In this document: in pieces, positions 1,224-62,826 of the stretch | Layout of the letters: each line of letters opens with the position of its first letter | Numbering within the stretch: the stretch's first letter is position 1 | NCBI RefSeq assembly: GCF_037126465.1 | Contig: NC_088204.1 | Span: forward strand, 77,871,807-77,935,806 | DNA length: 64,000 nt | DNA from: Ornithodoros turicata | Lineage: Eukaryota; Arthropoda; Arachnida; Ixodida; Argasidae | Direction of reading: 5' to 3' | Notes under the pieces: generated by a model | Databases searched by the model: none | Seen by the model: only the letters and a program-made list of their open reading frames with translations | What the model was told of the DNA's origin: nothing | Program-made: the position numbers and the translations under genes

Positions 1224-1461
1224 TGTGTCTTGAACAACTTGGGACAGCAGACGCTGGACAAGGTCGTCAAGAATCTTCTGTGTGATATACTTCGGGCTGT
1301 ACTCCGCCTTGTGGGCAAACCTACCGGTCCTGGGCTTAAGAATGCTGGAAAGGGCACTCCACTTGAACCACTAGGAAATAGTCTCGGAGATAATGCTGGC
1401 CAACTGTTGGACAGGCTTAGACAGGGGACGAACCAACTGAGAAACGCACTGCGCAACCAAT
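1224..1461 (+). CDS. unit 0 exon B5: Cys-led helix exon of secreted module protein (partial gene)
   Basis: The exon is 238 nt, 79 codons plus one base. It follows a pyrimidine-rich acceptor (TTTCCACAG) and ends CAA T|GTAAGC, so it runs phase 0 to phase 1. It opens Cys-Val-Leu-Asn-Asn-Leu-Gly-Gln-Gln, then an amphipathic stretch with a second Cys (LLCDIL), a Gly/Pro-rich linker with GKGTP, and ends LRNALRNQ. The same exon recurs at 30843-31143 and 59200-59437 with the same boundaries. Unit 0's earlier exons lie left of the window. The family is not recognised; the protein is inferred to be secreted because complete copies start with a signal peptide. Confidence 0.82.
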
Positions 1462-2111
1462 GTAAGCAAAAGCCGAAGCTCTAGCGAAGCCGAAGCGAAG
1501 TAGAAGCTCTAGTGAAATTTTTTGTGTATCTCGCATTCCTCTTCACCTGAGAGTAGAAAGACCTTTTGTGAGTCTTGTGCATTCAATTCTCGCAGGAATG
1601 GCAGGAGCGTCAAAAATCGTCAGTTTCTTCTTACCGCGTAGTCGTCCGTGAGGCCGAGTACCCACATGCGGACAATAGACGAGTACAGTAAATCCCAGTA
1701 CTCTTTGCGCACGCATTGCATTCTGGGCGCTTGCTGAGCGGGGGAACGAAGAATAATCCTTCCCATTTCTCTTTCGCTGACCTTGACACGTCGTGGACAA
1801 TGGACCGGTAGGGGAGAAGTCGGAACAGTTTGGAGGCCACCCGTGTCTTTCGTATTAGTAAACTCCCACAGTTCAAAGCGGCGCTAAGCACTCTGGGATT
1901 TTCTGAACTCGTCTATTGGCGCGAGAACGCGAAACCCTTGCCGCTGGACGGGAAATGTCACCTCCGCGTCCCGATTTTTTGCGATCGCGCAGCGCACGAT
2001 TTTTAGCTGCATGCGCACATGCTCGTCCAATCAGGAAGTAAACGGAAGTTGCCTGACGTTCTTGTTTTCTTCCGGCCCCCCGCGCGGAGAGCATTCACGG
2101 CGTGGTTGTCA

Positions 2112-2758
2112 GGAAGGTATGTTGCAGCGGTGCTCACGTTTTTCAACAGGCGAATTAACGAAGGAAATAAAATGTCATTGCTGCCTACATTATAGAGCCT
2201 CGCATTAAAATGACTTTTTGGGCCGACACTGGTATAAAATTTGGGTGTGCAGGCAGGTGGGCTGTGGAGAGGCTGTCGGGAAGCGGGCTGGGGTGGCAGG
2301 CATCCCGCTTGCCGCGCGTATGCATGCCGCCCCAGCTATACTGCCTTCGCCCGCGACTCTCCACCACAAGATATCGTCAAACGCGAGCGCTTCTGAGACC
2401 GTGTTTGACAAGATGGCGAACAACAGCGAAGTCGAGTTACTGACTGTAGTGAACGTTTCCGTTCTGACATCTGAGCTTTTGCGAAATCAACATCACAGAC
2501 GAGAAACGCAGGCTTTGGGTTCACTCGCTGTGGCGACAGCGCCTTCTTTTCTTGCAAACAATGTTTAGCTTTCAACTTCCTGACACTGTGACAGTAAATA
2601 TCTTACACCTTACTTGCCTGCACTCTAATATTTTATTCCAGTGTCGGCCCAAGCAATCATTTTAGTGCAACGCTCGATAATGTACGCAGCAATGACATTT
2701 TATTTCCTTCATAAATTCTACGGCTGAAAAACGTGAGCACCGCTGCGACATACCTTCC
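2112..2758. mobile_element. non-autonomous DNA element with about 120-bp terminal inverted repeats
   Basis: The first roughly 120 bases, starting GGAAGGTATGTTGCAGCGG, return in inverted form at 2640-2758, ending CATACCTTCC. The repeats include the phrase GGCCGACACTGG on the inner side. No transposase frame is visible inside. The element is absent from the matching intron of unit 1, so it probably inserted after the duplication. I could not fix a target-site duplication, so no superfamily is assigned. Confidence 0.6.
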
Positions 2759-2837
2759 AGTCAGTGGGCCCTGGTGTATGTCGCCCAGGTTCAATTTACT
2801 GTAAATACGAGGCATACATCGAAGTTTCCTTATTTTA

Positions 2838-2931
2838 TTCCCCCCATTCCACCAAGCACTGGGGTAGAGTATCGCCTGTTGCGATGAAACCCCCCACTCT
2901 CCTAGGCCGAAAATAAAGTTGTTGTTGTTGT
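2838..2931 (+). mobile_element. short LINE-like 3' tail fragment
   Basis: A C-rich stretch runs into AATAAAGTTGTTGTTGTTG. The GTT-repeat ending resembles the ATGTTGTTGTTG tail of the I-like LINE at 17.4 kb. It probably represents a severely 5'-truncated insertion, but it is too short for a firm family call. Confidence 0.35.
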
Positions 2932-3368
2932 TCCTTATTTTCCTTCTTCTACCCGGTGCGTCCGCTTCAACGCCAGTGACGTCGCAGTCAGCTAGGAAGC
3001 GCGATATCTTTAGTTAAGCTGAGCGGATACAGCGTCTGTTCATTGATAATCAAGCTCCAATGGCAAAGTAAAAACTGTGACGCGACTGAATCGAACTCTA
3101 CCATTGGCTGTGCCATATGAGGATTCACTGGATTTTTCTGGCAAACGCTCCGGACAGGTCCCATACTTCTCACAAAGCTGTCCTTAGCTCCCCTGTCCCC
3201 AACTCCTTCCCTTCGTCCCCTCCACCTCTACATGTGTTTACGCATCCGCACACCGTTTATAGCAACAGTTGTTTCGCGGTGGGAAGTAAAAGGGGCAAAA
3301 CAACGTCGGAACATTACCCGTAAAAAAGGCATAGCAGTGCTGAGAGCAAACATCTTATTCCTTTACAG

Positions 3369-3385
3369 GTCCCAACCTTGCATGA
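3369..3385 (+). CDS. unit 0 terminal exon (coding part): Cys-Pro-Asn-Leu-Ala-stop
   Basis: After the acceptor TTCCTTTACAG the exon supplies GT, which completes the T left by exon B5 to give Cys, then Pro-Asn-Leu-Ala and TGA at 3383-3385. The same tiny coding tail occurs at 33646-33662 (Cys-Pro-Asn-Ile-Ser) and 60822-60841 (Cys-Pro-Gly-Ile-Lys-Pro), each after an equivalent acceptor. The phase match and the recurrence in all three units make this the natural gene end. The 3' UTR follows to about 3660. Confidence 0.8.
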
Positions 3386-3635
3386 GTGCCATGGAAGCAA
3401 GCAAAGGATATTGCCAATATTTTCGCTCAGGGTCGTAAAATACACGTCTTGCCTCTGAGAGATAAGAACGGGCTTTTGTTTGTGGTTTTTCTTGCTGGCG
3501 CTCTCTTTGTATATCTGCACGAAGAGCCCTCATCGTTTGATCTGTACGCACTGCACGTCACTTTGGGCACTGGGGGTTGTCAGGAAGGAATAAAGTGCCC
3601 GTTCTTTGTGCTCTCGTGAGTGTGGTACGTTGAAC

Positions 3636-3641
3636 AATAAA
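3636..3641 (+). terminator. polyadenylation signal of unit 0
   Basis: AATAAA lies about 250 bases after the stop codon and is followed by T-rich sequence. The same signal is conserved in the duplicate 3' UTR of unit 1 at 33923-33928. Confidence 0.7.
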
Positions 3642-4398: not shown

Positions 4399-4453
4399 AA
4401 AGAAAAAAACGAACACAGGTTTTCTCTCTCTGCTCCTACAGCTACGCATCGAT

Positions 4454-4606: not shown

Positions 4607-4614
4607 GATGCCAG

Positions 4615-9290: not shown

Positions 9291-9296
9291 AGGCGT

Positions 9297-14104: not shown

Positions 14105-14157
14105 ACCGCGTATCCCTTAAATTGGCGAGTTGAACCACGACACAGACAGACATCGTT

Positions 14158-14440
14158 ATGGCGCTGCCCCTTCGCTACGTCGTACTGCTAGTAGCAGTAC
14201 TATGCGTACTACTTCCCTTGGAAGTTGACGGAGCAAAGAAACCCAATAAACCGCAGAAGAAGAAGCCACCGGGAAAGTCCATGATGAAGCCACCGGGAAA
14301 GTCCATGAAGATGCCACCAGGAAAGTCCATGAATAAGCCACCGGGAAAGTCCATGAATAAGCCACCAGGAAAGTCCATGATGAAGCCACCAGGAAAGTCC
14401 ATGATGAAGCCACCAGGTATGTCCATGATGAAGAGCAAAG
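14158..14440 (+). CDS. unit 1 exon 1: signal peptide and KPPGKSMM repeats
   Basis: 94 codons plus one base, ending AAAG|GTATCT (phase 1). Residues 1-25 form a signal peptide: MALPLR, a hydrophobic core, and a likely cleavage near VDG-A. The mature start is basic (KKPNKPQKKK) and is followed by seven 8-residue repeats of the type PPGKSMMK. The 24-nt repeats explain open frames on the opposite strand. The ATG was chosen because the same ATG opens the unit 2 exon and a signal peptide follows at once. The donor and the next 30 intron bases are almost identical to unit 2. Confidence 0.85.
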
Positions 14441-40546: not shown

Positions 40547-40688
40547 ATGGCGCTGCCCCTTCGCTACGTCATACTGCTAGTAGCAGTACTATGCGTACTA
40601 CTTCCCTTGGAAGTTGACGCAGCAAAGAAACCCAAGAAACCGAAGAAGACAAAGGCACCGAAAATGCCCAAGATAAAGAAGAGCAAAG
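40547..40688 (+). CDS. unit 2 exon 1: signal peptide and basic head
   Basis: 47 codons plus one base, ending AAAG|GTATCT (phase 1). The first 24 codons are nearly identical to unit 1 (MALPLRYVILLVAVLCVLLP, cleavage near VDA-A). The mature start is KKPKKPKKTKAPKMPKIKK. The PPGKSMMK repeats of unit 1 are absent. Confidence 0.85.
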
Positions 40689-46600: not shown

Positions 46601-49600
46601 TCCGCCAACAACCACCAACTTAGAGCTCCGTCTGGCCGCTCCAAGCAATCGCCATCGCGTTCACATAATGTCGGAGTTCTGGTCTTGTGGTCGGAGTGGA
46701 CGGGTTGCTCTAATTACCTATCGCTCAGTAGACAGCAGTCTGATGGTATGGTCTGCTCTGCATTTATGCCTAGAGGATGAACACTACTAAGGCTTCTACC
46801 TCATTGTATGCTGTGGTTTGGCTGCTTCGACTCAGCAGTAACCACGTTTGTTTCCATTTGTTCAAATTTTTCGGGAAAAAACTGGAAAATAACCGGGTTT
46901 TCTTTTTTTTTTTTTTCGAGCGATTGAAAATTTCCGGAAATTTTGCAACTCTAGTCACAGCTCACGCACCGCCGTTCCCGCACATGGCTTTACCGTACAG
47001 CACAGAGGAAAAAGAAATAAAAAAAATATGTACGGACTAGTTGCGCTGTACCCGCCGAGGGGTGCCTGCACAGGTGTCTCGCATTACAGTCGCCTTTGGC
47101 TTTGTGGCTGGCCTTATCTGCCTTGCGGGAGGTGCGCATCCTGATTATGAACTGTCTGCCCGTTTTTGTTCGTCTATAGTTCAGACAGATGGTGAGCACT
47201 CGGAATGCGACCATACGCAATAGCTGGGTCTAGGGAATCGTTTTCACTCCAAAGGGTTCGCGAACTGTTTCGCGGAGGGCCAATAGGGAGTTTTAGTGAA
47301 TCGTTCTTACTCAGACGGTTCGCGAACGGTTTCGCGAGGGCCAATAGGGAGTTTTAGTGAATCGTTCTTACTCAGACGGTTCGCGAACGGTTTCGCGGAG
47401 GGCGAATATGGAGTTTTAGTGAATCGTTCTCACTCAGACGATTCGCGAACGGTTTCGCGGAGGGCCAATAGGGAGTTTTAGTGAATCGTTCTCACTCAGA
47501 CGATTCGCGAACGGTTTCGCGGAGGGCCGATAGGGAGTTTTAGTGAATCGTTCTCACTCAGACGGTTCGCGAATGGTTTCGCGGAGGGCCAATAGGGAGT
47601 TTTAGTGAATCGTTCTTACTCAGACGGTTCGCGAACGGTTTCGCGAGGGCCAATAGGGAGTTTTAGTGAATCGTTCTTATTCAGACGGTTCGCGAACGGT
47701 TTCGCGAAGGGCGAATATGGAGTTTTAGTGAATCGTTCTCACTCAGACGATTCGCGAACGGTTTCGCGGAGGGCCAATAGGGAGTTTTAGTGAATCGTTC
47801 TCACTCAGACGATTCGCGAACGGTTTCGCGGAGGGCCGATAGGGAGTTTTAGTGAATCGTTCTCACTCAGACGGTTCGCGAATGGTTTCGCGGAGGGCCA
47901 ATAGGGAGTTTTAGTGAATCGTTCTCACTCAGACGGTTCGCGAATGGTTTCGCGAGGGCCAATAGGGAGTTTTAGTGAATCGTTCTCTCTCAGACGGTTC
48001 GCGAACGGTTTCGCGAGGGCCAATAGGGAGTTTTAGTGAATCGTTCTCACCCAGACGGTTCGCGAACGGTTTCGCGGAGGGCGAATATGGAGTTTTAGTG
48101 AATCGTTCTCACTCAGACGATTCGCGAACGGTTTCGCGGAGGGCCAATAGGGAGTTTTAGTGAATCGTTCTCACTCAGACGATTCGCGAACGGTTTCGCG
48201 GAGGGCCAATAGGGAGTTTTAGTGATCATTTTCACTGAAACGTTCGCGAACGATTTCGCCACGACCCAATCAGATGATTACGTTCTGGGTCACTTCACCT
48301 TCTTATTGGTCATCCGCGAAGGTGTTCGCGAACCGTTTGAGGAACAACGACTCACAAGAACTCGCTAATGAGAAGGGGGAGTCACTCGGAATAGAGTCCA
48401 CTGATTTGGCAGCGGCAGAACCGTTCGTGCACCGTTCGAGTGAAATCGATTCACTAAAACTTCCTAATAATTCTGTTATTCGAACGATGTCTGAGAAGTG
48501 AGCGGGATTACACATATTCCTGCTACCACGTGTAAATGTGTTATTTTAGGTCCCTGCATCAACATCACGCTCTCCAACCTTTTCAACCTGGGTAATGTAA
48601 GTCGACTCGCTTTGCATTTGAGAGGCAACAAACTAGCACTTTACCGTAGACACGTGAGCAAATTATTGCGGACGCTCAAGCCGCTTTCCCGGTGGTGGAG
48701 GAACTGTGACATGCGTTGCAACAACGACAGGAATGATTAAGGCTAAAACTTTTAACGGCGTTAGTCAAGCTCCGTAAATCGCATTAAATGTGTCATGTCG
48801 GACTTTTATTAATCAGCCATTAGTATCAAGGTGTTTCAGCATTTTGTGACACGGGATATCAGCGACGTCTGCATGTTACAAAGTAGAAAAATAGAGTATA
48901 TCTGCTGTGTTTAAACTTACAGAATCTTTCAAGGAGTGTACATCTTACACAGTTTAGCACTTATAGTCCGTGATTGCTGACTTTTTGTAGAGAAAGCTTT
49001 GTCTCCCTTGTGTGCGCAGATGTGGACAGTTCTCTTGTCCTGCGGTACTTGTGCGGGAATAGCAGTTTTCGTTGGCTTGTAGCTCATGTTGACAGTAGTT
49101 TCAAATTCCTTCCAGTGCGTTGGAAACGACTTGCAGTTCTGTACGCCGAACCACGTAAGTCGATTGGTGTTTGTTTTAAGTATTAATATAATCCTGAACC
49201 AATACAAGACAAACCCAGAGTTTAACGTCAGTTTCGGAACATGACTGGCCGATTCGTGGGAATCTGACAGCGTTCGTCCTCTACAATTCTCATAATCTTA
49301 GAAGCTAAGGTGTAGGAAAGGACTTCTCAGCAACAGAGCCAATGCTAGTTAATCCAAGCGATAACAGCAACTGACGAAATGAGTGACAGCAGGCGACGCA
49401 CAGCGGCAGTGAAGCCGAAACACTGTGGTTTCGATATCATTGTTTTGAATGAATTCATTTCTTCGCCACGGTCATGCTGCGCGAATTGTTATCGCGAGAT
49501 ATTTCGTTGCACTTGGATTTCTTCATTTCGGGTTCATTCATCACACGTGACCACACAATGTAGAGTAACTAAGAGTATAGCTTGCTAATGCGTTCTTCAT

Positions 49601-52600
49601 CATGCTCTTGTTCCAGAACGGGATAGTAGCTGGAGTCGTACGCCTGCTGGGGGTAAGTAACCTTGATACTTTTTACTTGTCTCACTCGCGCATTCTTCAA
49701 AACGCGATATTGGTGCTGTAGCGGCACCACATTGTGAGCGCCTGCTATGGCGGGTAGAGACCCGAAGCATTCATCACCTTTTGTGCCACCATGGTGTGGA
49801 CTTCAACAAATATTTAACCGTAACCCTTCTGAGTGGCCGATATTTCACTATTTATCTTACATCGCATTCTTGGAGTAGTGAACTGCTCGTGATGCACGAG
49901 TCTCATCTCAAGAGCTGCTCCGCAAATGCCCCTAGCGGTCGTGTCGCCAACTAAAAGTGTCGACTGCCCGAGGAGACAATGGTTTGATAATTGATAATTC
50001 GTGACATTACCTCGCGAGACAACTATGTTCGTGAGCGACATCGCAGTGGTCGGTGTGCGGAATAATATTTGCCCACCTGAGGAGGGTTCTTTGACGTGCG
50101 GCGAAACCTCGGCGCGCTGCACACCGTACTTAACATCCTTCGCGGAAGTCGGCGTGTCTGAACAGTCTGAAGCGCTTGTATCCATGGCAATGGTTTGCCA
50201 CTACGACTGCATAAAGAACACACAATCATTCCCTCCGAGAGTGCTTTTCTCGTGAGCGACACTGCTGCTATGAGGCGCATAAAGACACGTCTGCTAGACA
50301 TAACCTCGGAGCATAGAGCCGAAGCAAGCGAGCGAGCGATTCATGTCTCATGAACAGCCTGTGAACTCCAGTCATGCAATCTCATTCTTCAGTGCCCCAC
50401 TCTCACCCTCAACGCATTAACCTCATGCTTTCCTTTTAAAGTCATCTTCTGTAATCCATCTCATTATTCCTTCACCGTTTGTTAGTCATCTTTTTTTTTT
50501 GTCATCTTTGTCTTTAATCTATCTCATCCTTCTTTCGCCGTTTGTTAGTTTTTATCCTTTATTTCCTAATTATTTTCTTTTCTTTTCTTTTTTATTTATC
50601 TTATTCTTCTTTCATGTATTTTCTTTCTTTGTGGAATAGCATCCCAAGCAGCAAAATGTACTGAAAGTCGAGTGCAATAGGGGTGAACGGGTAGGTGGAA
50701 GGCCTTCAACAGACTCGTGAAACTAAAGAACATTGATAAGACACATACCGTCCACCCCTATTGCACTCGACTTTCAGTACATTGTGCTGCTTGGGATGCC
50801 AACGTCCCGTTTAGCTGACTTTCTCCCGTTTTTTTTTTTTTTTTTTCTTTCGTCTAGTAAATATACCCCCCCCCCCCCCCCCGCCCGAAGCAAGCTCCGT
50901 TAGGGACTACACAAAGAAATAGAGCTTTTAAGCACCTAACGGAGGATGAAATTGAAGCAATTCACCAAAAAGCCAATGCGTGTAGGTGTACTGAAGTAGC
51001 ATGTCCGGGGACGTTCCGACGGGGAGGGGGCGGAGAGGGGGCAGAGAGGGCGCCCTGGCAGGTTGGTTGGACAGTATAAAGCAGGAATGAATAGAATCTG
51101 AATTTACGATATCTGCACTGCGAACGAGCGTTTCCTTTTCTTTGTTTACAGAGCTTCTAACGGCAGTGAGGAGGGGCGGGGGGGCTTCACGTTGCAAATA
51201 TCCATAGTTTTCGTTTTTCAATCAATCACTCTAGGTTCGCATTGTTGCGCCGGCACTCTTTGGCTTTCTGTGAATTACTTGAATTACTTGAATTTCGTGG
51301 TATGCTTGCGGGGCGGCTCCAGATGTCAGACGCGAGCGTTGCAACCAGCATCTCGCAGTGCCACGATATATGTTATCCAAAAATAGCCTACTATGGACAC
51401 AGTTGCATTGGACGGCTTCTTACGCATCTTTTAATCAGTCTAATTTGGAACACATCATTGGATCACATCGCTTGTGCGCTGCCTGCCTACGCCCTCGTCT
51501 TAGTCACGGTATGGGCTGTGTGTGCTACACTACAGGTCATCCAATGGTATTGCTGGTTTTCTACTGCTGCAAATTGTGACATAGCATTCGAGTTGCTAGT
51601 CTTGCAAGACGGAAAAAAGTTCAAATGTCTTCTTCCTAACATATCTGTCTGCCGCGCGTTACGGCGCAATAATAAACTGAAACAACAGCATTGAGTCGTC
51701 ATCACGCTGGGTGACATCGAAGGATACATTGAAATAATTCGCTACCACGTCTACATCGAACAGAACAAAAAACGGTTCTTTAGGTGCACTTTAAAGCACT
51801 GTGTTGAAAGCAGAATAAAGGAACGTCCTTTCGCAATCACTTGCATCCTTCATAGCCTGCCATCCAGTGGTCCCTAGTGAACGTTTCTTGGTGGGTATCC
51901 CGGGAAGTGCTGAAAAGAAGGTATCCCCGGCTTCCTCGGTGTGTGATTGCAATCCCTTACTGTTCCTTTCTCGAAAGTGTTTGCTTGTTGGATTGAGGAA
52001 CGCCAAACCTGGCGACTACTTCGTGTCCGTCGGATTCCTGTTGGAAGACATCCTCATAATAGCGTACCGCGTGCTGGGCCTGCCTAATCGTAAGTGCTTT
52101 TCAGTATCTCGATAAATGAGGCTAGAGTCTCCGATCAGTCAGAATTTTTGCCTTCTCAAAGTACCGCAGATCTCATTGAAGTGCATGGGTTTGCAGTTGA
52201 TCTTGCATTGAGCTCAGATCTAGAAATCCCAAAGACTCCACCAGAAATTCTAATGGTCCATTACAATATTTTGATGAACCATCAAAACAGCTTGTCGGCC
52301 CATTAACAACTCCATAGTGGTCCAATAGGACTGTTAGCGGTCCGACAAATGCTGTCCCACAGCCCTTCAGTGTACCGAACGGCCCCACAAAAAGGCCTGA
52401 TGGTACAACAGGGCCACTGGGGGCCCAACAAAGGATATCCAACTGCCCATCAGGTGTGCTTAGTGGCCCCACAGGAGAACCCAATGGTCTGTTAACGAGG
52501 CTTTGCGGTCAAACAGGTGATGCCTCATAGCAGATCAGGAGCCCCTAATGGGGCATTAGAGATATGGCATGTATAATCGCTAGTACACTCCATACAAGAC

Positions 52601-55600
52601 CCTGTAAAGGACAGAACTGCAAAAGATAAGGCGGAAACTGCGTCCTGTCCTGTCCTAGTCTTGTCCTTTAGTGTTTCCTTGTACCGAAAGTTCTAGCTGT
52701 TATAAGAAATGAGCAACGCTGTAGCCGACGTTCTCACAGTATTCAATATGGCAGCTCGCATTGTCCTGACAGGCCGATGGACCTCCGACCGTCAATCTAC
52801 TAATGTTTTATGTCGTCTGACTCGTTGCGACTCGGAATATTCTAATATTGCTTCAAAACGTGGGCGTTCCCAGGATTTTTCCAGGGGGGGGGGGCAAAGT
52901 GCTTCTGGGGGGGGGGCAAGAGTGCAGACCACCACCCCCTACCGCATCTTTTTCTGGAGGCGGACGTTGGGCACTGTGTGGGTGTTCAGAGGTTCCTATT
53001 ATAACATATCTGAGTATAATCATTACGACCTATATGACTAGAGAGTGCACTGTTTTCACAAGCGACCTTGGAGTTTTAGGGGGGCCACGGCCCCCCTGGC
53101 CTCCTCTCGGTACGACCATGCTTCAAGATTCTGTTAAATATGGTTCGTGATATGTTACCCCCATAAGACTTCCCTAAAACTGATCAGCGCTCACAGACTC
53201 AAGCTGCGAACGCCCCGCGTGTGAATATTTTTGCACTCCACCGCCTCTCCGTATATACCAACGAGAGCCGAAATAACAGTTATTCACTGTCATTGTATAT
53301 GGCAATCACGATAAGATCCTCATTTATGAATTATCTGGGTCTGTAAGCCAGAAGGGGAAGTCGGCTGCCGTCGCTTTCAGACTCATCACAACACGTGGGC
53401 CACTTGACCGAACGACGACTTTTTCGTCAATATTACGTCATCAGCGGGTCTTACTCCGTGCAACACCAGACCTCGTTGCCATCAGTTACATCACACAATA
53501 CCGTGTGCTGATGAGCCTATGCTGATGAGCCGCGTGTGCTGATGTTAGAGTAGTGCAAAAAATGTTGTCCTCAGACATAGCGATATGCACTACGTAACAA
53601 CAGCTGTTCATTTACTTCACAATTTGACGCGCTGACCAGGGCAGGGCAAACCAAAAAGCAGGATGTACGTTCTGACACTGTGGTATTCTGGGTAGATGCC
53701 CGAGCGATCAATTCGCATTCCAGAAATGACAAACGTGGCACGTATTCCAACGCAGCGGAACAGTTCCGTGGCCGGATAGTGGGCGTCTGCAAAGGGTCAA
53801 ATCCACCAGCGTATTGTAGCGGTGTTCCGAAAAACGTGACCTGTGGACCTCCTCTCGTCATCCAGCTGCCTGAGACACTCAACATCGGGACAGTAAGTTC
53901 CGCCATTTTGGTTCACTCAAACAGTGCTCCTGTGTCGAGTAGGTGTAACGTACATTTTAGCTGACGCGGCACCATAGAGTAAGGGATTACTAATCCCAAT
54001 TTTGAGGTCTTGCTGTAACTTTGCGTATGAAGAAACGCAAGCTGGACCGCTGACAATTGTGGGCAGCACCTTGGAGACAATGTGTTTCGCGTCCGCGAGC
54101 GTACCCCCACGAGGAACAATTCAGGAATTTATTATTACAGCGAGAGCTGTATATATGGGGAGTTATGCATCGGATAGCGTGCGTGCGCCGTGTGTCCCAA
54201 GCATCGGATAGAATGCGGCGTTGGTGATCACGTGAGGTGTGGTGATGCAGGTGGCGGGAGTGAAAAGCGCAAGACGCCACGCTTTTCGCCAGGACGGCTC
54301 CGCCGATTAAGGTTCTCAGCGAAGGTCCTTGTCTTGTGTGCTTTGTGGGGGCGCTCTAAGACAGCTGATGCATTGTTATTCTTGTGGGGGCGCTGTTGAA
54401 CGTGTACGGCGGGCGGGGCAATAAATGGTTTAATGGGGAAGAAAACCTTGTATTGGGGGTCGTTGGCCGGGAGCCTTGGCGTTGTTGGAAAAGTTAGGAT
54501 ATAAACCGTAACGTTCTAACCTTCCGTTTGCCTCCGTGTTCCTACACCGAATTCGTTCAGAAAAGATTGTAAAGATTCCTAAACATCTGAACAGGGCTTG
54601 AGTTGCAATATTAACATATAATATGTTAAAAACTCTCAAACACCGAGAAAGAATCGTGTTAAAGTCTGCCCACAGTGCGTAGCGACACAGCTGTCTTATA
54701 TTTCAGCTGCGAGTAACCAAAGGTTGCACAGCTACTCGGAATTTTTTTCTCTACTTTCGTACATCCGACGTGGGGTATTGGCTGTATTCAGACGTAGCTG
54801 GTTCTCCTCAATAGATGACCTTCTGTGCCCAGTGTCACCGTATTAAGAACATTCCTTCTATTTGTGCAGTGCTCGAACGAGACCTTGGTTGCCTGTCCTA
54901 AAAATCAACCAGCTAAGGTAAATGTCCCTCTTTACACTTCGAACGTTGCTACATCTTCTCCCGCGTGGTGGCAGGCTAGAGGGGTCTCTGCCTTACAAAA
55001 CATGCGCGGACGTCACAAGCTGGTGGTGATTTTCCGGTGGCTTATGGTGTGGTACGTTGGTAGGACTGGATGGGACAGCGGCCTGATACACGAAGTTACC
55101 AGAGGATCGCCGACCTATAGGATTAGCTCGTTCCGGAACTTGTTACGCCGAAACACTTTGTGTAAGACGTGACCTATCCACTTATTTACTTCCCGCATCC
55201 AGGACAAGACAAGACAAAACTGCCTCCATAACAGGGTGTTCCGCATTGACCGGGCTACTCCCACTTACTACGGTGACCAACTATGGTGACTGCTCGCGCG
55301 AGCGACAGAAGCGCCATCTATTTTTTATTCTGTATTAGCGCCGCGAAGCAACTGTGGCTATATGAGCGGCTCCCAGACGTGGACAGATGGAGAGATGACA
55401 GCAGGGAAGAGTAGGGAACAGGGGGTTAGTATGCGCCCTGTGCCGACAGACGTCCGTAAAGCCTGCCAGAAAACTCAGGGTAAACCTTAGACAGCACAGA
55501 CGGCGGTAGGATTCGAACCTGTGGACCTGTCAGAGAAGAGACCACCACACTTGGCTGCATCGAACTCATTTACTCAGCGCAGAACATCGGTCCGCGAAAA

Positions 55601-58600
55601 CAGTTGCTGGTGCCTCGTGGTTGCGGGCTGGCTTTTGCCGTTTTCAGCAAGGGCGCCGCAAACCCACCACCACCTGGTCTACAGCACGACCTTGGAGCCA
55701 CCACCAATGAGCGGATGTTTTTATCCACCCAGCCATGCCACTGGTAGAGAGCCATCTAGCCCCGTAAACATAGAGCAGTGGAAATGACCACTTAGCAGTG
55801 GCTTGTCGCCGTGGCTTTTGTCGTTAGGACCGAATCGCAAAAAAAACCGTTTGTGTTGCAACAAAGATAAATGACAATCGTGGGTGTTTAAAAATTATCT
55901 TGTAGAGCAATTATTGTATATTTCCTGATTGGCATCCGCAATCGCGGCAAGTGTGAACCACGTTACATGACATCTTGTGCAGCAGTGGTGGTGGCGTGCT
56001 ATTTCCGAGCGATCTGCCGGACAAAAATCCAATCACATATCATGGACGTAGTAATAACAAGAAAATAAGCGGTGCAGTTCACTGTTCAGTTGGTAACATT
56101 GAAACAAAAGTTGCAAAGCCGCTAGCGAGATTACGTTTGTGTACTCACCGCCTTGTAACCACATGCTTGTAACTAACCGTCGGCGCCTAACTTTTGCAGA
56201 AACAGGACAACGCCAACCTTTTCACACTTCTTGGAGTGAGTCATCTTATGGTCTCTTTATGTATAAATACACCTGTGCTAGAGTATAGGTAGATAAAACT
56301 AAGGCAAGGTTTCACCGATCAAACTATCACATTAGAGAAATTCCATGTAGCTATACAAGGTTCTTTGGCAAACTCTAATCGCGACACGAAACATTTGAAA
56401 GTGCACGGAACATTATGCGTACGCTATGACACAAGCGACAGACGCGGCGTTGCCATCCTGTTCAGTCTTAAAGGGACTATGAAACAATTTTTCCCGTCTT
56501 TGTTTGTCAGGAGATATATTCCAGAACATGACGCCGAAGTTTTACGTTCGGCAAGCGGGCGTTTTCTCTCGAGAGAATTTAAAGGGGTTGAGAAACCACA
56601 CAGATAGACCTTTGTCTCTGATAGAGTCTGTTCGCCTTACTCCACGCACTCCGTACTCAAAGTCCCACCTCCCACCTCCTACTATTTTTTATGCTACAGG
56701 GTTTAGAAATCTCCCATTTTTGAGGCCCCCACCGACCGTGGCGCCAAACGGTGCCAGGCAGCTCCATGAAGTCGGCGGGAAGTGACGCCTTGACCGGTTG
56801 CTCTATGGCTCTACGTCATAGCCCTTCCGCTCATTTCACTTCGCTGCGTCGCGTCCACGGAGTAAGAACTTCTTACTCCGTGGTCGCGTCCCAGCGCTCG
56901 CCGCGGCCCTGTTTACAGGCGTCGTCATGAGAACGGGAACTCCGCACTTCCGTGGCGCGCTCGGTACTACGTCATACCGAGATCGGGCAAGGAGGAGGCG
57001 AGCCAAGGGTGAAAGGATCTCCTCATATTCAAAGCGTCATAACTCCGTGGCGCGGAAGCGCAGCGTGAAAGGGTTTCGGCGGAGATGTTTGGCACCAATA
57101 GATCTACATTTCAAACATCATTTTGTGTAATATTTGGATTTGAATTCACAACCCCTTTAAGTACCGAAATTATACGAAGCTGATACACCTTTTGTTGGCA
57201 CGCCACGGAGAGCCGTGGCGGGAGTGTCGTGGGGAGGAAGATGACCCGGTTTCCGCTGCGCCCGTTTACGTCACCGACGATGTCACGCGCGCATAGAATG
57301 ATACGCAATGTAAGCCGAGGCTCTTTTGTGCGAGCCGTGTGCAAAACAAATTTAACAGGTCCCCCAAACTCACCTCGGAAAAGCGTGCAACGAAGAAGGC
57401 CGCCACTAGATACCCCACTGTTGCCGTTCCGCATCACTTCAGCCCGCTAAGTTTAGCGGCAAAATGTTTTTGTTGTTTCTGCGAATGAATCTAGTCTTTA
57501 TATGCCCAAATAAAATGCGTATAACAACTTTCTGTGTCGTGTTTCACTTTTTGGTTCCGTTTTTAAACGTGTTGAGCGATCGGAAGGATCTAGTGCACGG
57601 CTGCGTGCATCACATAGCGTACCTGTCGTACCAGGCGCCGCCAGTGGGCGCCGCAGGCGCAGTCGTCCATTTCTTCTTCGGTGACCTGGCCTGGCTGGGA
57701 TTGTGCTTCAACTGGATCTTTAGCGCGCTACAATCAAACGCAAGCCAACGTCTGGTAACAATGGGGTATCTAAGGGCGGCCTCCGGCATTGCACGCATCG
57801 GGATAGGAACAAATACATGGGAAAATGGCGACCTTGGGGGACCTGAAATTTAAGGAGGCACCGGGAGCACGTGTGTAGTTGTCAAGAAGCGAGAGGAGGA
57901 ACACGTGAGGAAGGAGAAACGGGAAAGAGAGGTCAGAGGGCGATTTTGACTTAGAAAGCGGCACACGGCTAAAACTTTACGGCTAAAACGCAGTCTTTTA
58001 ACTTAAAAGACGGCGCACTTCAGTAGCGAGAGATTTCTGGGGTACGAGTTTCTCGGCAGGAAGAACCGTTTTCACCAAACATTTTATTTTTGGTGAATTT
58101 CATGGGCGGTATTTTATGGGATCCTCGGGAAGTTTCCTAGTCTCTTTAACCAATATGCTCTAAGCGAAACGTTCTCGTAAAATGCGCGCTTCATGGAACA
58201 GCTTGTAGTGATTCAGTATGAAAGCGTGCAGGATCTTTCACATAACGTGTTAAAAAAAAAAGTTGTATTAGAAATCTACTTGTCCGAAAATTATGAAGTC
58301 AACGGCGAAATTTATCTTTGGCGAACTTACTTCTTGTATTGAACTGTACGTAACTATATGGAACGTACCGGCTTGTGCGTGTATGCTTTTTTTTTTTTTT
58401 TTGCCACAAACAGAAGGCGCATTACGAAATACGTTCCCCACTACAATGGTAATAGCTGGGAAAAAATTGTGAAAAGTCTCGTCTCCAGACGCCCAAATTG
58501 TCGCCCGCCGTCAGTTCTCCGTCAGGTTAATGCAAGGGATACCCTCGACCCATAATTCTCTAACAAGTAGATTATTTCATAGATTTTTTTTACTCGTTAG

Positions 58601-60841
58601 GTTTAACACCCTGCATATGGCATTGTATCAACACGATACTGTGCAAACGGGCAATAGTGCATTAATAAATGACAGTCCATGTGAAGACACTAGCAGTGGG
58701 ACCACACATGCAACCCTCATGTTGGTACAGCGTGCTGCGACGTTAACTGAAACGCAGCCTCGCCCTGTAGAGCGGGGCGAGACACATTCTAGAGCCGCCG
58801 AGCAGAAATAAAGGGTGAGAAGGTTTGGACTATCCCACTCCTGTTACAAGGGTTCACTAGCCCTGCGCTCCTGAAGGGTAGTTCCCCGCATAAGGTTCAG
58901 AGCGCCTGCCTAACGGCGGACACCCCTGTAACACGAGTGGGATAGTCGAAATCTTCTCTTTCTTTATTTCTCCTAAGCGCTGCTAGGGCGTCGCTCGCTC
59001 CGCTCCGCAGGGCGAAGCTGCGTTTACGAGCCCCGCTAGTGGTGTTTTCTTCATGGACTGCCATGCGTAAATCCCAATACCCAACTAGGTGTTGCGAGAC
59101 ACATGTGTGGTGTTTGTCCTACTGTGTTTTATCAACCCCAGCTACTCGTAGCACAATGGCAGCTCAAACATGACGGACCTCCTTTGTGTTGTCCCGCAGT
59201 GCATCCTGGACAATTTGGGCCAGCAGAGGCTCGACAGAGTCGTCACGGGCGTTCTGTGCGAATTACTCCGGCTAGTCAATTATCTTATGGGCGATCCTTC
59301 CACTGGAGGTGTCAAAGAGCCTGGACAAGGCACTCCCCTTCAGCCAGCAACAGATGCCATAAGCCAGAACAGCGGTGCCCTATTTGGCCCACTTGGCGAT
59401 GTAAAGGAACAACTAGACAACGCACTCAGTGACCAATGTAAGCAAAGACCACCACATGTTTGGACCACGATCTACTAGATTATAGCGACCATATCATAAT
59501 CGGCAACCCCTATGAGGAGCCCGTCCGCACGATCCGTTAGGAGCGCTGCACATCGGCCCGCGAGATCTACGTCATGATTGGACAATGGAAATGTGAATTT
59601 TGAACGCGCAGCAGAAGGCCGTAGCAGACAACAACTTTTGATGAAAACGCGTACAATGATGATGATGATGATCAACATTAGAAAGAAGCGTCTCCCGTGG
59701 GACATCCACCGCTTGTACAAAAATACTAAGGTAAGCTGAAGTACAAAGTATTGTAGAAATTGAGGAAGCAATAACAGGGCCGATGAGTAGCGCCGCCGCT
59801 AGCTTCCAAATGCAGCACAGGGAAGGGCCTATATGACATGGTCGCTATAATCTAGTAGGTCATGGTTTGGACATGCGTTCGAAAGCGGCTTCTACTGTAC
59901 AATTCTGTCGTAGTGGATATCATACACGGGCTATGTAACTGAATAAGAAACACGGAGAAAGTACGCGCTCAGTCTTCTCACCACCTTAACTGTTCCTGTG
60001 ACGTACCGGGCGCAACCAATCGGAAAGCCCAGTAGCTCAGCTCTTCTTGACTTCTGTAATTCTCTCCGACTTTTCTTTGCGATCTTCCAACTTCTGATGG
60101 GGGAAACATAATGAGAATATAAGTTTCCCATGTTCTTTCTAACGAGCAGGGAAAAACATCATACCCTACACGTGTTCACAAATGGATTCTACCGGTTTCT
60201 ACACGTATTGACGACGAGGTTACATTACCCTTCCTTTCTTGCTGTCGTAATAGCTGGTTTCCTATCTAGTCTAGATAAAACCACAACCATAAGCGTAGAC
60301 CACCCCGTGATCGAGACTGCAATTTTTTGGTTCCTTCTTCTGGTCTGCCGGCGAAGTTGAGACTCCATAGTCCACACTATAAAATAAGCCTTTGTCCCAT
60401 AACACACACAATGGTACCATTGCCGCTTCTCATTTTAGGAGAGAGCGGTGCATGCGTCTTCCTGCGCCAATTACCATGACTGTAAAGGTGTCACAAAAAG
60501 GCGCACACCTCCCATTCTCAACAAATCACGATAGGGACGATAGGGATCACGACTGTTGCCAGTGAGCTTCGTTATGCACTCGACAGTGCTTTTGTCATTA
60601 TAGGTCATGTCGGTAAGTCATGTAGGTCAGTAGGTCATGTCATGTCGGTAAGTCATGTAGGTCAGTAGGTCATGTCGGTAAGTCATGTAGGTCAGTAGGT
60701 CATGTCATGTCGGTAAGTCATGTAGGTCAGTAGGTCATGCCATGCCAGTAAGAGCAGAATTCGTGTTCTCGGTAAGGAGCGTTGTATATGCCGCGTCAAG
60801 AGCAGTCTTTTCCTTTTACAGGCCCCGGAATCAAGCCGTGA
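40547..60841 (+). CDS. unit 2: secreted two-module cysteine protein with mucin-like exon, complete gene, 11 coding exons
   Basis: Exons are 40547-40688, 45397-45582, 48550-48596, 49116-49154, 49617-49652, 51978-52089, 53696-53892, 54870-54917, 56200-56235, 59200-59437 and 60822-60841. They sum to 1101 nt, 366 residues plus stop, open throughout. Order: signal peptide, short basic Lys/Pro head, Thr/Pro-rich mucin-like segment, module A, module B, Cys-Pro-Gly-Ile-Lys-Pro end. Exon sizes equal those of unit 1 except the head, the extra mucin exon, B2 and B5. Module A has lost one Cys present in unit 1 (GDYF against GDFC). The family is not recognised; export is expected. Confidence 0.78.
41330..42304. 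mobile_element. TTAA-type MITE, interrupted, inside the foldback
   Basis: It begins ATGGAAGTGACCCC and ends CACTTCTATGCTCCTCTAA, matching 36019-36500 on both sides of an insertion at 41445-41923. The outermost left bases are missing. Confidence 0.7.
41445..41923 (-). mobile_element. hAT-type MITE (CAGGTCCCCCAA ends), copy 1
   Basis: The 8-bp duplication CGCGCAAG lies at 41437-41444 and 41924-41931. The ends are CAGGTCCCCCAA and its complement. A second copy in opposite orientation lies at 57356-57845 with a different exact 8-bp duplication. The frames inside are shared by both copies but resemble no transposase. Confidence 0.9.
43791..45396. other. rest of intron 1 of unit 2
   Basis: It resumes the duplicate of the unit 1 intron (GTAGTTGCGCGTCAGATGCG). 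An inverted fragment of the TTAA element family of 56.47 kb ends near 44633. Nothing else is recognisable before the mucin exon. Confidence 0.55.
45397..45582 (+). CDS. unit 2 mucin-like exon (Thr/Pro rich)
   Basis: 186 nt between TCTTTCTTGCAG and a GC donor (CAG|GCAAGT). It starts G|GT and ends TCA G|GC, so it is phase 1-1 and can be added or skipped without a frame change. It encodes E-C-A-P-T-T-T-P-T-P-P-P-G-C-P-P, then Thr/Ala/Ser tracts with three Cys in all, a strong candidate for O-glycosylation. A GT at 45571 would also keep phase 1, but it matches the donor consensus poorly. I find no counterpart in intron 1 of unit 1. Confidence 0.75.
45665..45870 (-). mobile_element. tRNA-derived SINE, minus strand
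   Basis: Box B on the minus strand reads CGGGTTCGATCCCGG. The body has GCACCGTGTGTCGGAGATTTC and ACGTCAAAAGAACCCC. The same family lies at 61310-61520. It is in the intron between the mucin exon and A2. Confidence 0.7.
46420..46950. mobile_element. probable DNA element with TTTCCGG-rich ends
   Basis: CCGGAAATTTTGGGGG and GGAAAAATTGCCC near 46450-46510 are answered by GAAAATTTCCGGAAATTTTGC near 46925-46945 in inverted orientation. Edges and target duplication could not be fixed. Confidence 0.4.
47240..48260. repeat. 62-bp satellite array, about 16 copies
   Basis: The unit contains GGGAGTTTTAGTGAATCG, TTCTCACTCAGACG, then GTTCGCGAACGGTTTCGCG. A longer-period pattern is visible: a five-unit block (about 309 bp, starting near 47.30 kb) is repeated almost exactly near 47.60 kb. 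An inverted relative (CGATTCACTAAAACTTCC) stands at about 48450-48470. The open frames inside the array are artefacts of the repeat. It lies in the intron before exon A2 of unit 2 and is absent from unit 1. Confidence 0.9.
48550..48596 (+). CDS. unit 2 exon A2: Cys/N-glycosylation exon
   Basis: 47 nt between TTATTTTAG and GTAAGT. It reads P-C-I-N-I-T-L-S-N-L-F-N-L-G-N after completing a Gly. Three residues differ from unit 1. Confidence 0.82.
49116..49154 (+). CDS. unit 2 exon A3: two-Cys exon
   Basis: 39 nt between CCTTCCAG and GTAAGT. It reads C-V-G-N-D-L-Q-F-C-T-P-N-H, phase 0-0. Confidence 0.8.
49617..49652 (+). CDS. unit 2 exon A4: 12-codon microexon
   Basis: 36 nt between CTTGTTCCAG and GTAAGT. 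It reads N-G-I-V-A-G-V-V-R-L-L-G, phase 0-0. It aligns with unit 1 exon A4 in seven of twelve positions. Confidence 0.77.
49653..51977. other. intron A4-A5 of unit 2
   Basis: It holds foldback copy d (50643-50795), T-rich low-complexity DNA at about 50480-50640, and T and C runs near 50.83-50.88 kb. The open frames at 51.2-51.7 kb have no counterpart in unit 1 and are not supported. Confidence 0.6.
50643..50795. mobile_element. foldback MITE, CCCAAGCAGC family, copy d
   Basis: A 153-bp hairpin element. Flanks are GCAT and ATGC. Confidence 0.8.
51978..52089 (+). CDS. unit 2 exon A5: Cys-led amphipathic helix exon
   Basis: 112 nt, acceptor TTTCTCGAAAG, donor C|GTAAGT. It starts C-L-L-V-G-L and holds A-K-P-G-D-Y-F, then FLLEDILIIAYRVLGLPN. 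The second Cys of unit 1 is replaced by Phe. The final base joins exon B2 as His. Confidence 0.82.
52090..53695. other. intron A5-B2 of unit 2
   Basis: From 52.23 to 52.55 kb GGCCC / CCAATGG-type motifs recur in both orientations (degenerate foldback style). From 52.86 to 53.14 kb a G-run-bearing repeat (CCCAGGATTTTTCCAGGGGG) resembles a DNA-element end. Otherwise nothing recognisable. Confidence 0.5.
53696..53892 (+). CDS. unit 2 exon B2: C-G-P-P exon, long form
   Basis: 197 nt between GGTAG (weak pyrimidine tract) and GTAAGT. Phase 1 in, phase 0 out. It reads A-R-A-I-N-S-H-S-R-N-D, later G-V-C-K-G-S-N-P-P-A-Y-C-S, K-N-V-T-C-G-P-P-L-V-I-Q-L-P-E-T and L-N-I-G-T. It has three Cys and an Asn-Val-Thr sequon. 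The second half aligns with unit 1. The first half does not, so the 5' boundary is the least certain of this gene. Confidence 0.68.
53893..54869. other. intron B2-B3 of unit 2
   Basis: GTAAGT to TTTGTGCAG. No exon or known repeat is seen. Confidence 0.6.
54870..54917 (+). CDS. unit 2 exon B3: two-Cys, N-glycosylation exon
   Basis: 48 nt, phase 0-0, between TTTGTGCAG and GTAAAT. It reads C-S-N-E-T-L-V-A-C-P-K-N-Q-P-A-K. Confidence 0.85.
54918..56199. other. intron B3-B4 of unit 2
   Basis: It contains an inverted tRNA-SINE piece at about 55440-55530 (box B on the minus strand, ACAGGTTCGAATCCTACC) and an ACAGGGTGTTCCGCATTGACC motif at 55232. The rest is unassigned. Confidence 0.55.
55440..55530 (-). 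mobile_element. tRNA-derived SINE fragment, minus strand
   Basis: Minus-strand GGTTCGAATCCTACCGCCGTCTG followed by TGTGCTGTCTAAGGTTTACCC. It is a worn copy of the family at 17.8 kb and 26.7 kb. Confidence 0.55.
56200..56235 (+). CDS. unit 2 exon B4: 12-codon microexon
   Basis: 36 nt between ACTTTTGCAG and GTGAGT. It reads K-Q-D-N-A-N-L-F-T-L-L-G, phase 0-0. Confidence 0.8.
56472..57156 (+). mobile_element. TTAA-flanked element, second family
   Basis: TTAA at 56468-56471 and 57157-57160. Ends AGGGACTATGAAACAATTTT and the complement of AGGGGTTGTGAATTC. Inverted fragments of the same family occur near 22.9-23.03 kb and 44.54-44.63 kb. No transposase. Confidence 0.65.
57356..57845 (+). mobile_element. 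hAT-type MITE (CAGGTCCCCCAA ends), copy 2
   Basis: The exact 8-bp duplication AAATTTAA lies at 57348-57355 and 57846-57853. It is nearly identical to the reverse complement of 41445-41923, which argues for recent activity. It lies in the B4-B5 intron of unit 2. Confidence 0.9.
57846..58670. other. intron B4-B5 of unit 2, middle
   Basis: A-T rich with a T-run near 58.39 kb. Nothing recognisable. Confidence 0.5.
58671..59065. repeat. imperfect palindrome of about 395 bp upstream of exon B5
   Basis: GACAGTCCATGTGAAGACAC is answered by GTGTTTTCTTCATGGACTGCC, the CGCAGCCTCGCCCTG part by CAGGGCGAAGCTGCG, and GACTATCCCACTC by GAGTGGGATAGTC. The turn is near 58.87 kb. It ends 135 bp before exon B5 of unit 2. 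Probably a foldback element. Confidence 0.7.
59200..59437 (+). CDS. unit 2 exon B5: Cys-led helix exon
   Basis: 238 nt, acceptor TTGTCCCGCAG, donor CAAT|GTAAGC. It begins C-I-L-D-N-L-G-Q-Q-R-L-D-R-V-V, holds V-L-C-E-L-L-R-L-V-N-Y-L, then GQGTPLQP and a tail ending NALSDQ. Same length as unit 0 exon B5, no acidic insert. Confidence 0.85.
59438..60600. other. last intron of unit 2, 5' part
   Basis: No exon. The phrase GACCATATCATAATCGGCAACC near 59487 and AGCGACCATGTCATATAGG on the opposite strand near 59840 suggest a short inverted element between them. Otherwise unique. Confidence 0.45.
60601..60745 (+). repeat. minisatellite carrying GGTAAGT splice-donor motifs
   Basis: Units of about 30-41 bp built from TAGGTCATGTCGGTAAGTCATG and GTAGGTCAG recur four times. 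GGTAAGT stands at 60612, 60647, 60677 and 60712. The array ends 76 bp before the terminal exon acceptor of unit 2. Confidence 0.85.
60822..60841 (+). CDS. unit 2 terminal exon (coding part): Cys-Pro-Gly-Ile-Lys-Pro-stop
   Basis: The acceptor TCCTTTTACAG is followed by GC, which completes Cys with the T of exon B5. TGA is at 60839-60841. The coding tail is one codon longer than in units 0 and 1. Confidence 0.78.
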
Positions 60842-60891
60842 ATGCGACGGTATCACGAAAATATTGCCGACGCTTCGGTTATGCATTGAAA

Positions 60892-60897
60892 AATAAA
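60892..60897 (+). terminator. polyadenylation signal of unit 2
   Basis: AATAAA 51 bases after the stop. A second AATAAA lies at 60919-60924. Either could be used. Confidence 0.6.
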
Positions 60898-60924
60898 GAA
60901 AAGGACAGCCTTGCCTGTAATAAA

Positions 60925-62470
60925 GCCACACTCGTGCTTGAGTATCTTCTTTCTCCACTGATTCGTGGTACGTTTGCCATGAAGAGCATTTGTCTGCTCT
61001 GCATGTACTGCACATTATTCACGAACCTGTCGCTATGAAGACAGACAGACATTCACATCGGGAACTCAGCAGTCACTGCTCCTGCAGCTACGCCACACCG
61101 ATGCGACACACACGTTGCTGCTTTCAAGATGGAGTCTCTCGGAACTGCACATGCTTGGTACGCACAGCAAAATTTACGCAAGCTTCGCATATGCACAACG
61201 AATCTTTTGAAATGCTTTGTCCTTGTGTGCTGAGATAAGGCACGTAGGCTGTATGCCGTGTAGCAAGTAATAATGGTGTCTTGATGTTACGCGGAAGATT
61301 TGTCTACCTACAGCACGGCGACATACGTTGCACGTGCCGTAGGGTATGGACTGAGGATGATTTCGATCACTTGGGGGTACTTTTGACGTGCGCAAGAAAT
61401 CTCCAACACGCGGTGCTGGAAGCAATGTTTACCTCCCCCCACATTGCTACCGCCCTCGACCGGGTTTGAACCCGCGATCTTGAACTCAGCAAGCCAACAC
61501 GTTACTGACTAGAGCTACGTCCGAGGAGGGCTGTGGTGTAGCAACCATCTCAATCAGCATCAGATTCGAGTACCTTCTGCGCGAAGACTGGGATGTGGCC
61601 TTTGTACGAATCTTAGCACCAGTTGTCCAGGAATCATGGCATTCCTTCCCTCAGCAGCTAGACGCCAAATCGGTAGGCAAGCAGCTCTGTTAAATGACAA
61701 CATTACCTGGGCCATCGCCGACGCCCGGAGGAATTCGCATTCGGAAACCGCGCGCACGAGGATCTGAGGATCAGTGCACTACAGGAACCGTACAGTAAAC
61801 AGTTTGGATTGCTGGATACTTTCTAGCCAGCACTTGTCTTGTCTGTCTCTTCGGTTGTTTAACTCTCTTTGGTGCGCTATCCTGATGGAAACTACAATAT
61901 AGAGGCAAAAACTGCAGCAGATCCCAGAATCTGAGGATCCGTGGACTACAGGAACCCTACAGTAAACAGTTTGGATTGCTGGAGGATATACTTTCTAGCC
62001 AGTACTTGTCTTGTCTGTCTCTTCGGCTGTTTAACTCTCTTCCTGATGGGATGTACAGCAGATAACAGCAGCTCAGCAGCAGCCAATTCATAGAACAAAA
62101 CGGTATCACCGCTGGATTCAGGAGACCGTTTCTGCTATCATTAACATAAATGCTTGGTGTCACCAAATGCCTCCCTTTTTCAACAAATCGGGAGAGATTC
62201 ACCTTTTTTTTTTTCGTTCACCAGATTTTCCTTCGTGATTGTTTAAATTTGTCTGCGCAAATAAATTCCTGTCAGTTGTGAGTTTGCAGATACGTTTGTC
62301 TCCTTGTCTTAACCGCCCTTCGTCCCGTCTCAGTGCTGCTTTGAAGCGACAGAGATTCACCCCCTGCGGAATGGTGCTTAGCTGGGGCCATGTTTTGATT
62401 CGTAACACCAGTTCCGGTATTGTTCTCGTACTCTTTATGTTCCGTCTCGTTCTGTGTTCAGAGCTTCACC
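60925..62470. other. intergenic DNA between unit 2 and unit 3
   Basis: No gene. It contains a minus-strand tRNA-SINE (61310-61520). A direct repeat is present: ACTACAGGAACC...TTTCTAGCCAG occurs near 61.77-61.83 kb and again near 61.95-62.0 kb. The region is the counterpart of 4.6-5.83 kb. Confidence 0.6.
61310..61520 (-). mobile_element. tRNA-derived SINE, minus strand
   Basis: Minus-strand box B GCGGGTTCAAACCCGG, box A region GTAGCTCTAGTC, and a body shared with 45665-45870 (GCACCGCGTGTTGGAGATTTC). Confidence 0.7.
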
Positions 62471-62478
62471 ATAAAAGG
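62471..62478 (+). promoter_or_regulatory. TATA-like box of unit 3
   Basis: ATAAAAGG about 190 bases before the ATG, in sequence duplicated at 5837-5844. The leader contains the palindrome GTCACAGCTGTGAC at 62585-62598. Confidence 0.5.
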
Positions 62479-62666
62479 ATATTTTCTGCCTTCCTCTCAC
62501 CTTCCACTCCGGCAAGTCATTGCACCCGTTACTCAACGAAAGGGGATACACACAAGCACGTTCAGAGCACACTTGCTAAAATAAGTCACAGCTGTGACCT
62601 CTTTAGAAATGTCGCGGATACTTTCGACTGAAGAACATAGTCACTAACACTCTAACAGGCGTTGCC

Positions 62667-62826
62667 ATGAAAATGCCTCTTCGTTACACCGTACTGCTCG
62701 TAGCAGTATTATGCATCCCATTGGAAGGAGGTGCAGTAAAAAAGACCACACCCAGCAAGAAACCCAAGAAGACAAAACCACCGAACCCATTTAAGGCACG
62801 CAAGATGAAGAAGGAGAAAGTGGCTG
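62667..62826 (+). CDS. unit 3 exon 1: signal peptide and basic head (gene continues beyond window)
   Basis: 53 codons plus one base, ending GCTG|GTGCGT (phase 1), the same phase as units 1 and 2. M-K-M-P-L-R-Y-T-V-L-L-V-A-V-L-C is a signal peptide, with cleavage near GGA-V. The head is basic (KKTTPSKKPKKTKPP, then RKMKKEK). A second ATG at 62673 aligns with MALPLR of the other units. The leader and promoter differ from units 1 and 2 but match the orphan leader at 5.8 kb. Confidence 0.8.

Follow-up and report, generated by a model that had tools for sequence, protein, structure and literature searches.

Most of the coding region of the schistosome micro-exon genes (MEGs) consists of very small symmetrical exons, mostly of 15 bp, in the outline given in PMC4350168, and their products are presented in PMC10526429 as secreted parasite proteins with a hydrophobic/aromatic motif after the signal peptide. 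Tick "mucins" are treated in a passage of the TSFam review (PMC7396615) as a compositional group that may hold unrelated sequences, and the same review asks if the recombinants seen in tick salivary families arose as meiotic mosaics or somatically, which genome mapping would tell. Here, we describe a tandem array of genes with very short exons, predicted to encode secreted proteins, in the genome of the argasid (soft) tick Ornithodoros turicata. The array crosses a stretch of 64,000 nucleotides (the window), which a genome search placed at positions 77871807-77935806 of contig C4 of the 1.07-Gb assembly.

Like MEGs as characterized in those two accounts (PMC10526429; PMC4350168), the array genes have very short exons between long introns, are hard to annotate automatically and are predicted to be secreted; four of their short exons (39, 36, 48, and 36 nt) are symmetric. 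Unlike in MEGs, short exons form the smaller part of the coding region (in the array gene U1, five of them make up 206 of 1059 nt, or 223 with a terminal exon of 17 nt), and the N-termini are Lys/Pro-rich, with no hydrophobic/aromatic motif seen by eye after the predicted signal peptide. The genes also belong to another phylum and encode cysteine-rich modules, and the likeness drawn here is one of layout; they are not members of the MEGs. With tick salivary and midgut mucins, as exemplified for O. rostratus in part of PMC6494864, they share predicted secretion and a Thr/Pro/Ser-rich stretch in four of six genes, which by composition places these four in that loose group. They differ from that group in a two-module body that our searches found in O. 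turicata only and in two members without a mucin exon.

An array of small-exon genes on contig C4

We consider it very likely, judging from the DNA, that this locus holds a tandem family of protein-coding genes with the layout set out below and with one head/body chimera, U2, among its members. The array consists of six genes (A, B, U0, U1, U2, and U3), all on the + strand between 77757239 and about 77965858 of C4 (~209 kb), and the window cuts it so as to contain the tail of U0, complete U1 and U2, and one further first exon. Exons were defined by comparing the two complete units in the window, and flanking DNA was added as 18 stretches of 10 kb, so that 244 kb were scanned in all. Above-threshold exon-peptide matches fell at 57 places, namely E2-E9 in order six times plus nine first exons, and neither a stray match above threshold nor any match on the - strand was found in the 244 kb, at score thresholds chosen after a first listing of matches was seen. 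Each gene has 10 or 11 exons, and all six frames are closed and free of internal stops, with predicted lengths of 453 (A), 283 (B), 849 (U0), 352 (U1), 346 (U2), and 690 (U3) residues. Every predicted protein has a head, encoded by the first exon and in some genes a mucin-like exon (M), and a body of two homologous cysteine-rich modules. The parts within the window are the following.

1224..1461, + strand: U0 E9, second-last exon, covering the module 2 helices plus tail; NCBI P0002 (LOC135392580) has this protein stretch as well
3369..3385, + strand: U0 terminal exon of 17 nt (ending C-PNLA stop); matches the end of P0002
14158-33662, + strand: U1, whole gene, 10 exons
14158..14440, + strand: U1 E1, 283 nt, phase 1; predicted signal peptide, basic segment, PPGKSM repeats
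17524..17570, + strand: U1 E2, 47 nt
18458..18496, + strand: U1 E3, 39 nt
19802..19837, + strand: U1 E4, 36 nt
20895..21006, + strand: U1 E5, 112 nt
24686..24825, + strand: U1 E6, 140 nt; spans the module 1 end and the module 2 start
26089..26136, + strand: U1 E7, 48 nt
27870..27905, + strand: U1 E8, 36 nt
30843..31143, + strand: U1 E9, 301 nt; Asp-rich insertion not in the other five genes
33646..33662, + strand: U1 terminal exon of 17 nt (ending C-PNIS stop)
40547-60841, + strand: U2, whole gene, 11 exons
40547..40688, + strand: U2 E1; predicted signal peptide and basic segment (A-type head)
45397..45582, + strand: U2 exon M, mucin-like and rich in Thr/Pro (62 codons), with a GC donor after it; same exon and junction in NCBI P0001
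45690..46325, + strand: U2 switch interval from A-type to U3-type DNA (putative recombination point)
48550..48596, + strand: U2 E2, 47 nt
49116..49154, + strand: U2 E3, 39 nt
49617..49652, + strand: U2 E4, 36 nt
51978..52089, + strand: U2 E5, 112 nt
53756..53892, + strand: U2 E6, 137 nt
54870..54917, + strand: U2 E7, 48 nt
56200..56235, + strand: U2 E8, 36 nt
59200..59437, + strand: U2 E9, 238 nt
60822..60841, + strand: U2 terminal exon of 20 nt (ending C-PGIKP stop); AATAAA within 100 nt of the exon start
62667..62826, + strand: U3a head, first exon, encoding a predicted signal peptide followed by a basic segment; in-frame junction to a mucin-like exon beyond the window, and no body exon found before the next head

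A preliminary description of the window had proposed tandem units on one strand, two of them complete, with intact splice sites, an open frame, and expansion in place. All of this agrees with what we found: the U0 tail, U1, U2, and the first exon at 62667 lie on the + strand, and six intact genes of the same orientation sit within ~209 kb of one contig. Its 10- and 11-exon units need a correction in one case, as U1 has exactly the 1059 nt and 352 residues given, but U2 comes to 1041 nt and 346 residues instead of 1101 nt (60 nt fewer). Likewise, the first exon of its fourth unit does exist at 62667 but is probably not the start of U3, the next full gene, because a better U3 first exon lies at window position +78227 and the exon at 62667 joins a mucin-only exon in frame. 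Two earlier elements of the gene models were discarded. A candidate exon at 14618/43795 (91.9% identical DNA) looks like a dispersed repeat, and the corrected phase of E1 removed the need for it; ends of U1 and U2 in frame inside the intron after E9 were replaced by the terminal exons of 17 and 20 nt.

All 58 array introns have AG acceptors, and their donors are GT in 57 cases and GC in one, after the mucin exon of U2, where NCBI P0001 makes the same GC-AG join. The GC donor had been taken for a general trait of mucin exons, which was wrong: A, U0, and U3 have GT and only U2 has GC. In the bodies, dN/dS is 0.32-0.38 in all eight pairs between A-type (A, B, U0, U1) and U3-type members (U2, U3), at a dS of about 1, and pS is above pN in all 10 exon blocks. 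The divergence of bodies between the two types thus reflects purifying selection. The U2-U3 pair has a body dN/dS of 0.50.

Predicted proteins and their database records

Three of the six genes have counterparts at NCBI: U2 (P0001, LOC135393512), U0 (P0002, LOC135392580), and B (P0003, LOC135392579). The preliminary description held that micro-exons hide these genes, and the models bear this out: P0002 and P0003 start upstream of the 36-nt E4, read through its acceptor and miss E1-E3, and P0001 starts elsewhere. First exons and micro-exons were apparently missed, so that all three models lack the signal-peptide exon, and in this way a predicted secreted family can drop out of secretome lists.

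We searched ~5.8 billion proteins three times, once with the spliced U2 protein (E up to 0.1) and twice with alignments (E up to 10 each). Nothing was returned but these three "uncharacterized" O. turicata proteins, the best with 100% identity over 80% of the U2 query. Since only the U2, U0, and B models came back, A and U1 seem to be absent from the protein records there. The searches covered proteins of 0.55-1.75 times the query length (to about 509, 535, and 331 residues, with full-length U3 at 690 outside this range) and needed shared exact words, and in one alignment search scoring was confined to the 7999 candidates with the most words in common; relatives in other ticks that are long or distant could escape these limits. 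Pfam gave 0 families for U2 and for all six module-1 sequences; with module 2 it gave three weak families (best E 0.11), which, where shown, fell below the cut-off. Two PDB searches gave no match and a third gave seven that are not credible (best E 0.41). The first Pfam, PDB, and protein searches used the first U2 model with its old in-frame end. Among the papers listed for tick micro-exons and for genome and salivary work in O. turicata, none described the family, and no paper was found by locus name or by four of the family's peptide strings. The earlier statement that no family could be named therefore holds within the word and length limits of the tools, as nothing outside O. turicata was matched; "unrecognised" is right in that no named family matched, but three members do exist as "uncharacterized protein" LOC entries.

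Within the first 30 residues of each of the six proteins lies a hydrophobic start (best 10-residue mean Kyte-Doolittle value 2.73-3.73), which we take as a putative signal peptide. It is followed by a basic segment with a pI over 30 residues of 10.5-11.1 and, in five genes, a Lys fraction of 0.33-0.47; U1 additionally carries PPGKSM repeats in E1. A separate Thr/Pro-rich mucin-like exon of phase 1-1 is present in A (513 nt), U0 (1674 nt), U2 (186 nt), and U3 (1176 nt); it contains tandem repeats, among them one of 18 nt that reaches about 82 copies in U0, and repeats of other periods. The combined fraction of Thr, Pro, and Ser in the head is 0.54-0.79 in these four genes and 0.28 and 0.32 in B and U1. 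Within the 244 kb we found seven Thr/Pro-rich stretches, all on the + strand: six in head regions and one upstream of the first exon of A.

The two modules of the body align over 77 columns with 29% identity in a profile comparison (P 1.9e-7). Two introns, those preceding the second and the fourth cysteine, match between them in place and phase in the alignment, and a third does when the count runs back through E4 and E8, both 36 nt long. The modules thus arose by duplication of a block of small exons. All six genes have 12 body cysteines, though not all positions are common: A-type bodies have one in GDFC without counterpart in U2, U3, and a distant paralogue (gene D, below), which instead have a linker cysteine (YCSG / ICER). 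Each module has an N-x-T sequon that is invariant in all six, NIT in the first and NET in the second. The pI of the body is 4.3 in U1, 4.7-5.8 in A, B, U2, and U3, and 9.6 in U0. As a separate observation, Asp-rich insertions are found in both E6 (24686-24825) and E9 (30843-31143) of U1 alone.

Heads, bodies and the U2 gene

Genome-wide queries with E5 found eight bodies, all on C4: the six array genes and two more, D at 77509815 (+ strand) and H at 77546353 (- strand), about 247 and 211 kb upstream of the array. Gene D has E2, E3, and E5-E9 in order, with lengths of 47, 39, 109, 137, 48, 36, and 226 nt, the same phases and 40-45% identity; its E4 was not found. Gene H has clear E5 and E6 and weak E2 and E3, in order within 10 kb. 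With the E9 query, a further gene, K, was found on another contig (C9:26663158-26663391, - strand, E 9e-4), with an E7-like exon of 48 nt in the right order within the surrounding 2.1 kb. At least nine bodies are thus known from two genomic places, and the exon layout is older than the array.

The nine first exons of the array are distributed unevenly, with one each for A, B, U1, and U2, two before U0 (U0a and U0b), and three before U3 (U3a-c). Over the upstream 180 nt and the codons of the signal peptide, identity of U2 is 86-88% with A, B, U0a, U0b, and U1 but 56-61% with U3a-c; the U2 body shares 94% with U3 and 64-66% with the others. The head tree accordingly conflicts with the body tree, each split with an ultrafast bootstrap of 100, and the place of U2 among the A-type heads is not fixed (30). 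DNA comparison puts the switch at window positions 45,690-46,325, in the intron after the mucin exon: the sequence is A/B/U0/U1-like before it and U3-like after it, introns included. New here is that U2, in the assembly, is a chimera in which an A-type upstream region, signal, and mucin head sit on a U3-type body. A simple misjoin of known copies is unlikely, since the U2 head differs by at least 12% from every compared head and the body by 6% from U3. Transcript assemblies are a common source for tick secretory families, and in them a chimera is difficult to distinguish from an assembly error; if the products prove salivary, the array would be a germline mosaic case with a mapped switch point in one contig.

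Genome-wide, 14 first-exon matches were found, all on the + strand of C4 from 77497371 to 77950188; 12 reach E 0.0034 or better, and the remaining two (E 0.046 and 0.63) are weak. Five lie outside the array, one of these 7 kb upstream of E2 of D. Four first-exon-like matches are located between D and the array (C4:77588986, 77649193, 77702951, and 77726293), one strong and the others with E values from 0.0025 to 0.63; they could represent mucin-only genes, heads of other bodies, or in part chance. No body was found between H and the array by the genome-wide E5 query. Within the array, U3a joins in frame to a Thr/Pro-rich exon, giving a predicted protein of 1117 residues without a body, and U3b has no phase-1 donor.

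Read by eye, the string GTCACAG(C/G)TG is kept about 70-100 nt upstream of the ATG in all nine array heads, including those at window positions 14158, 40547, and 62667 and six outside the window. The two head types share just 53-61% identity, and the string is a candidate regulatory site.

Proposed origin and competing explanations

The array very probably grew by tandem duplication together with head/body exchange between neighboring genes, and its two-module body arose from duplication of a small-exon block. Its products would be secreted glycoproteins with O-glycans on the head and N-glycans on the body, their modules may be disulphide-held helical domains carrying binding activity and a head that may serve as a variable charged or mucous carrier; they might act in saliva, in the gut lumen, or in another secreted coat. 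The term "parasite-side" in the preliminary description holds for the species only, as O. turicata is an ectoparasitic tick, and a role of the proteins at the feeding or blood-meal surface is a tentative suggestion, less probable than not.

Several observations weigh against this picture of secreted, glycosylated proteins under constraint. The NCBI model of U2 (P0001) uses a first exon at window position 42256 and has no signal peptide, and this start may be real or an alternative one. The signal peptides are predicted from hydrophobicity alone, glycosylation from composition and sequons, and two structure predictions with three-sequence input gave low mean pLDDT (37.7 and 34.6). The heads are not uniform either: that of B is hardly Lys-rich (K fraction 0.08), and no mucin exon was found in B and U1, so that "mucin-like" does not fit all members. 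Exon boundaries were picked with splice signals and phases required, which makes the presence of these signals partly a matter of construction and their agreement a sign of consistency instead of independent proof. Expression and head-to-body joins are predictions. Among A-type copies, body dN/dS is 0.71-1.11 in all six pairs, which would equally suit relaxed constraint, and pS is above pN in just seven of 10 exon blocks (one more is level), with eight of 10 for U2-U3; change within the A type may be relaxed or diversifying.

These A-type ratios, together with the incomplete heads U3a and U3b, are what a decaying pseudogene array with chance-open frames would show. We regard this explanation as very improbable, given six genes without internal stop, splice sites that fit with unchanged exon lengths across the six, strong constraint between subfamilies, and the conserved string upstream of all nine array heads. 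Clustered alternative first exons, of which the clustered protocadherins are a case, might instead be spliced in varied combinations onto shared bodies in place of fixed genes. The excess of first-exon matches over bodies (14, two of them weak, against nine), the two and three first exons that precede the U0 and U3 bodies, and a phase-1 donor in open frame in eight of nine array heads (in a script that listed phase-1 donors only) point this way. Such joins would also keep the frame, because head donors are phase 1, mucin exons phase 1-1, and bodies begin in phase 1. However, each of the six bodies can plausibly be paired with a nearest head that has an upstream block to itself, the extra heads may be decayed or separate genes (U3b lacks a phase-1 donor and U3a has a mucin-only frame), and both weak matches are among the five outside the array; alternative first exons on shared bodies are on balance improbable.

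A real family whose product is a structural or reproductive secretion without a host role (cuticle, egg coat, Gene's organ, or peritrophic lining) is compatible with the layout and a serious possibility, though short of probable. Mucin-like heads and Lys-rich segments suit coats and matrices too, and Pfam showed no chitin-binding or other domain that would decide the role. Rapid divergence is usual in interface and reproductive proteins alike, so that its presence among close copies does not separate such a secretion from an interface role. Returning to the tandem family with head/body exchange, we can also imagine, as a rather unlikely extension, that the whole ~470-kb cluster might work as a cassette system in which upstream-signal-mucin heads are numerous, two-module bodies are fewer, and the phase-1 junctions are interchangeable, so that the parts are reassorted by germline recombination, U2 being the example, and possibly by joining at the RNA level, to give a changing repertoire of secreted glycoproteins.

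Some further features of the window concern the introns of U1 and the region before it. Intron 1 of U1 contains two long open frames (15486-17240, + strand), probably a LINE copy, in which stretches resembling reverse transcriptase (YADD) and RNase H (VPGHCGITGN) were seen by eye. Another reverse-transcriptase remnant, also read by eye, is suggested at 31850-32245 (+ strand) by GVPQGSILGPLLF and YADD-like stretches. A tandem repeat with a period of ~87 nt occupies 27575-27844 (+ strand), just upstream of U1 E8. Finally, ARAGORN predicted a single tRNA-Ala at 9297-9369 (+ strand), which may be either a real gene or a tRNA-derived repeat.

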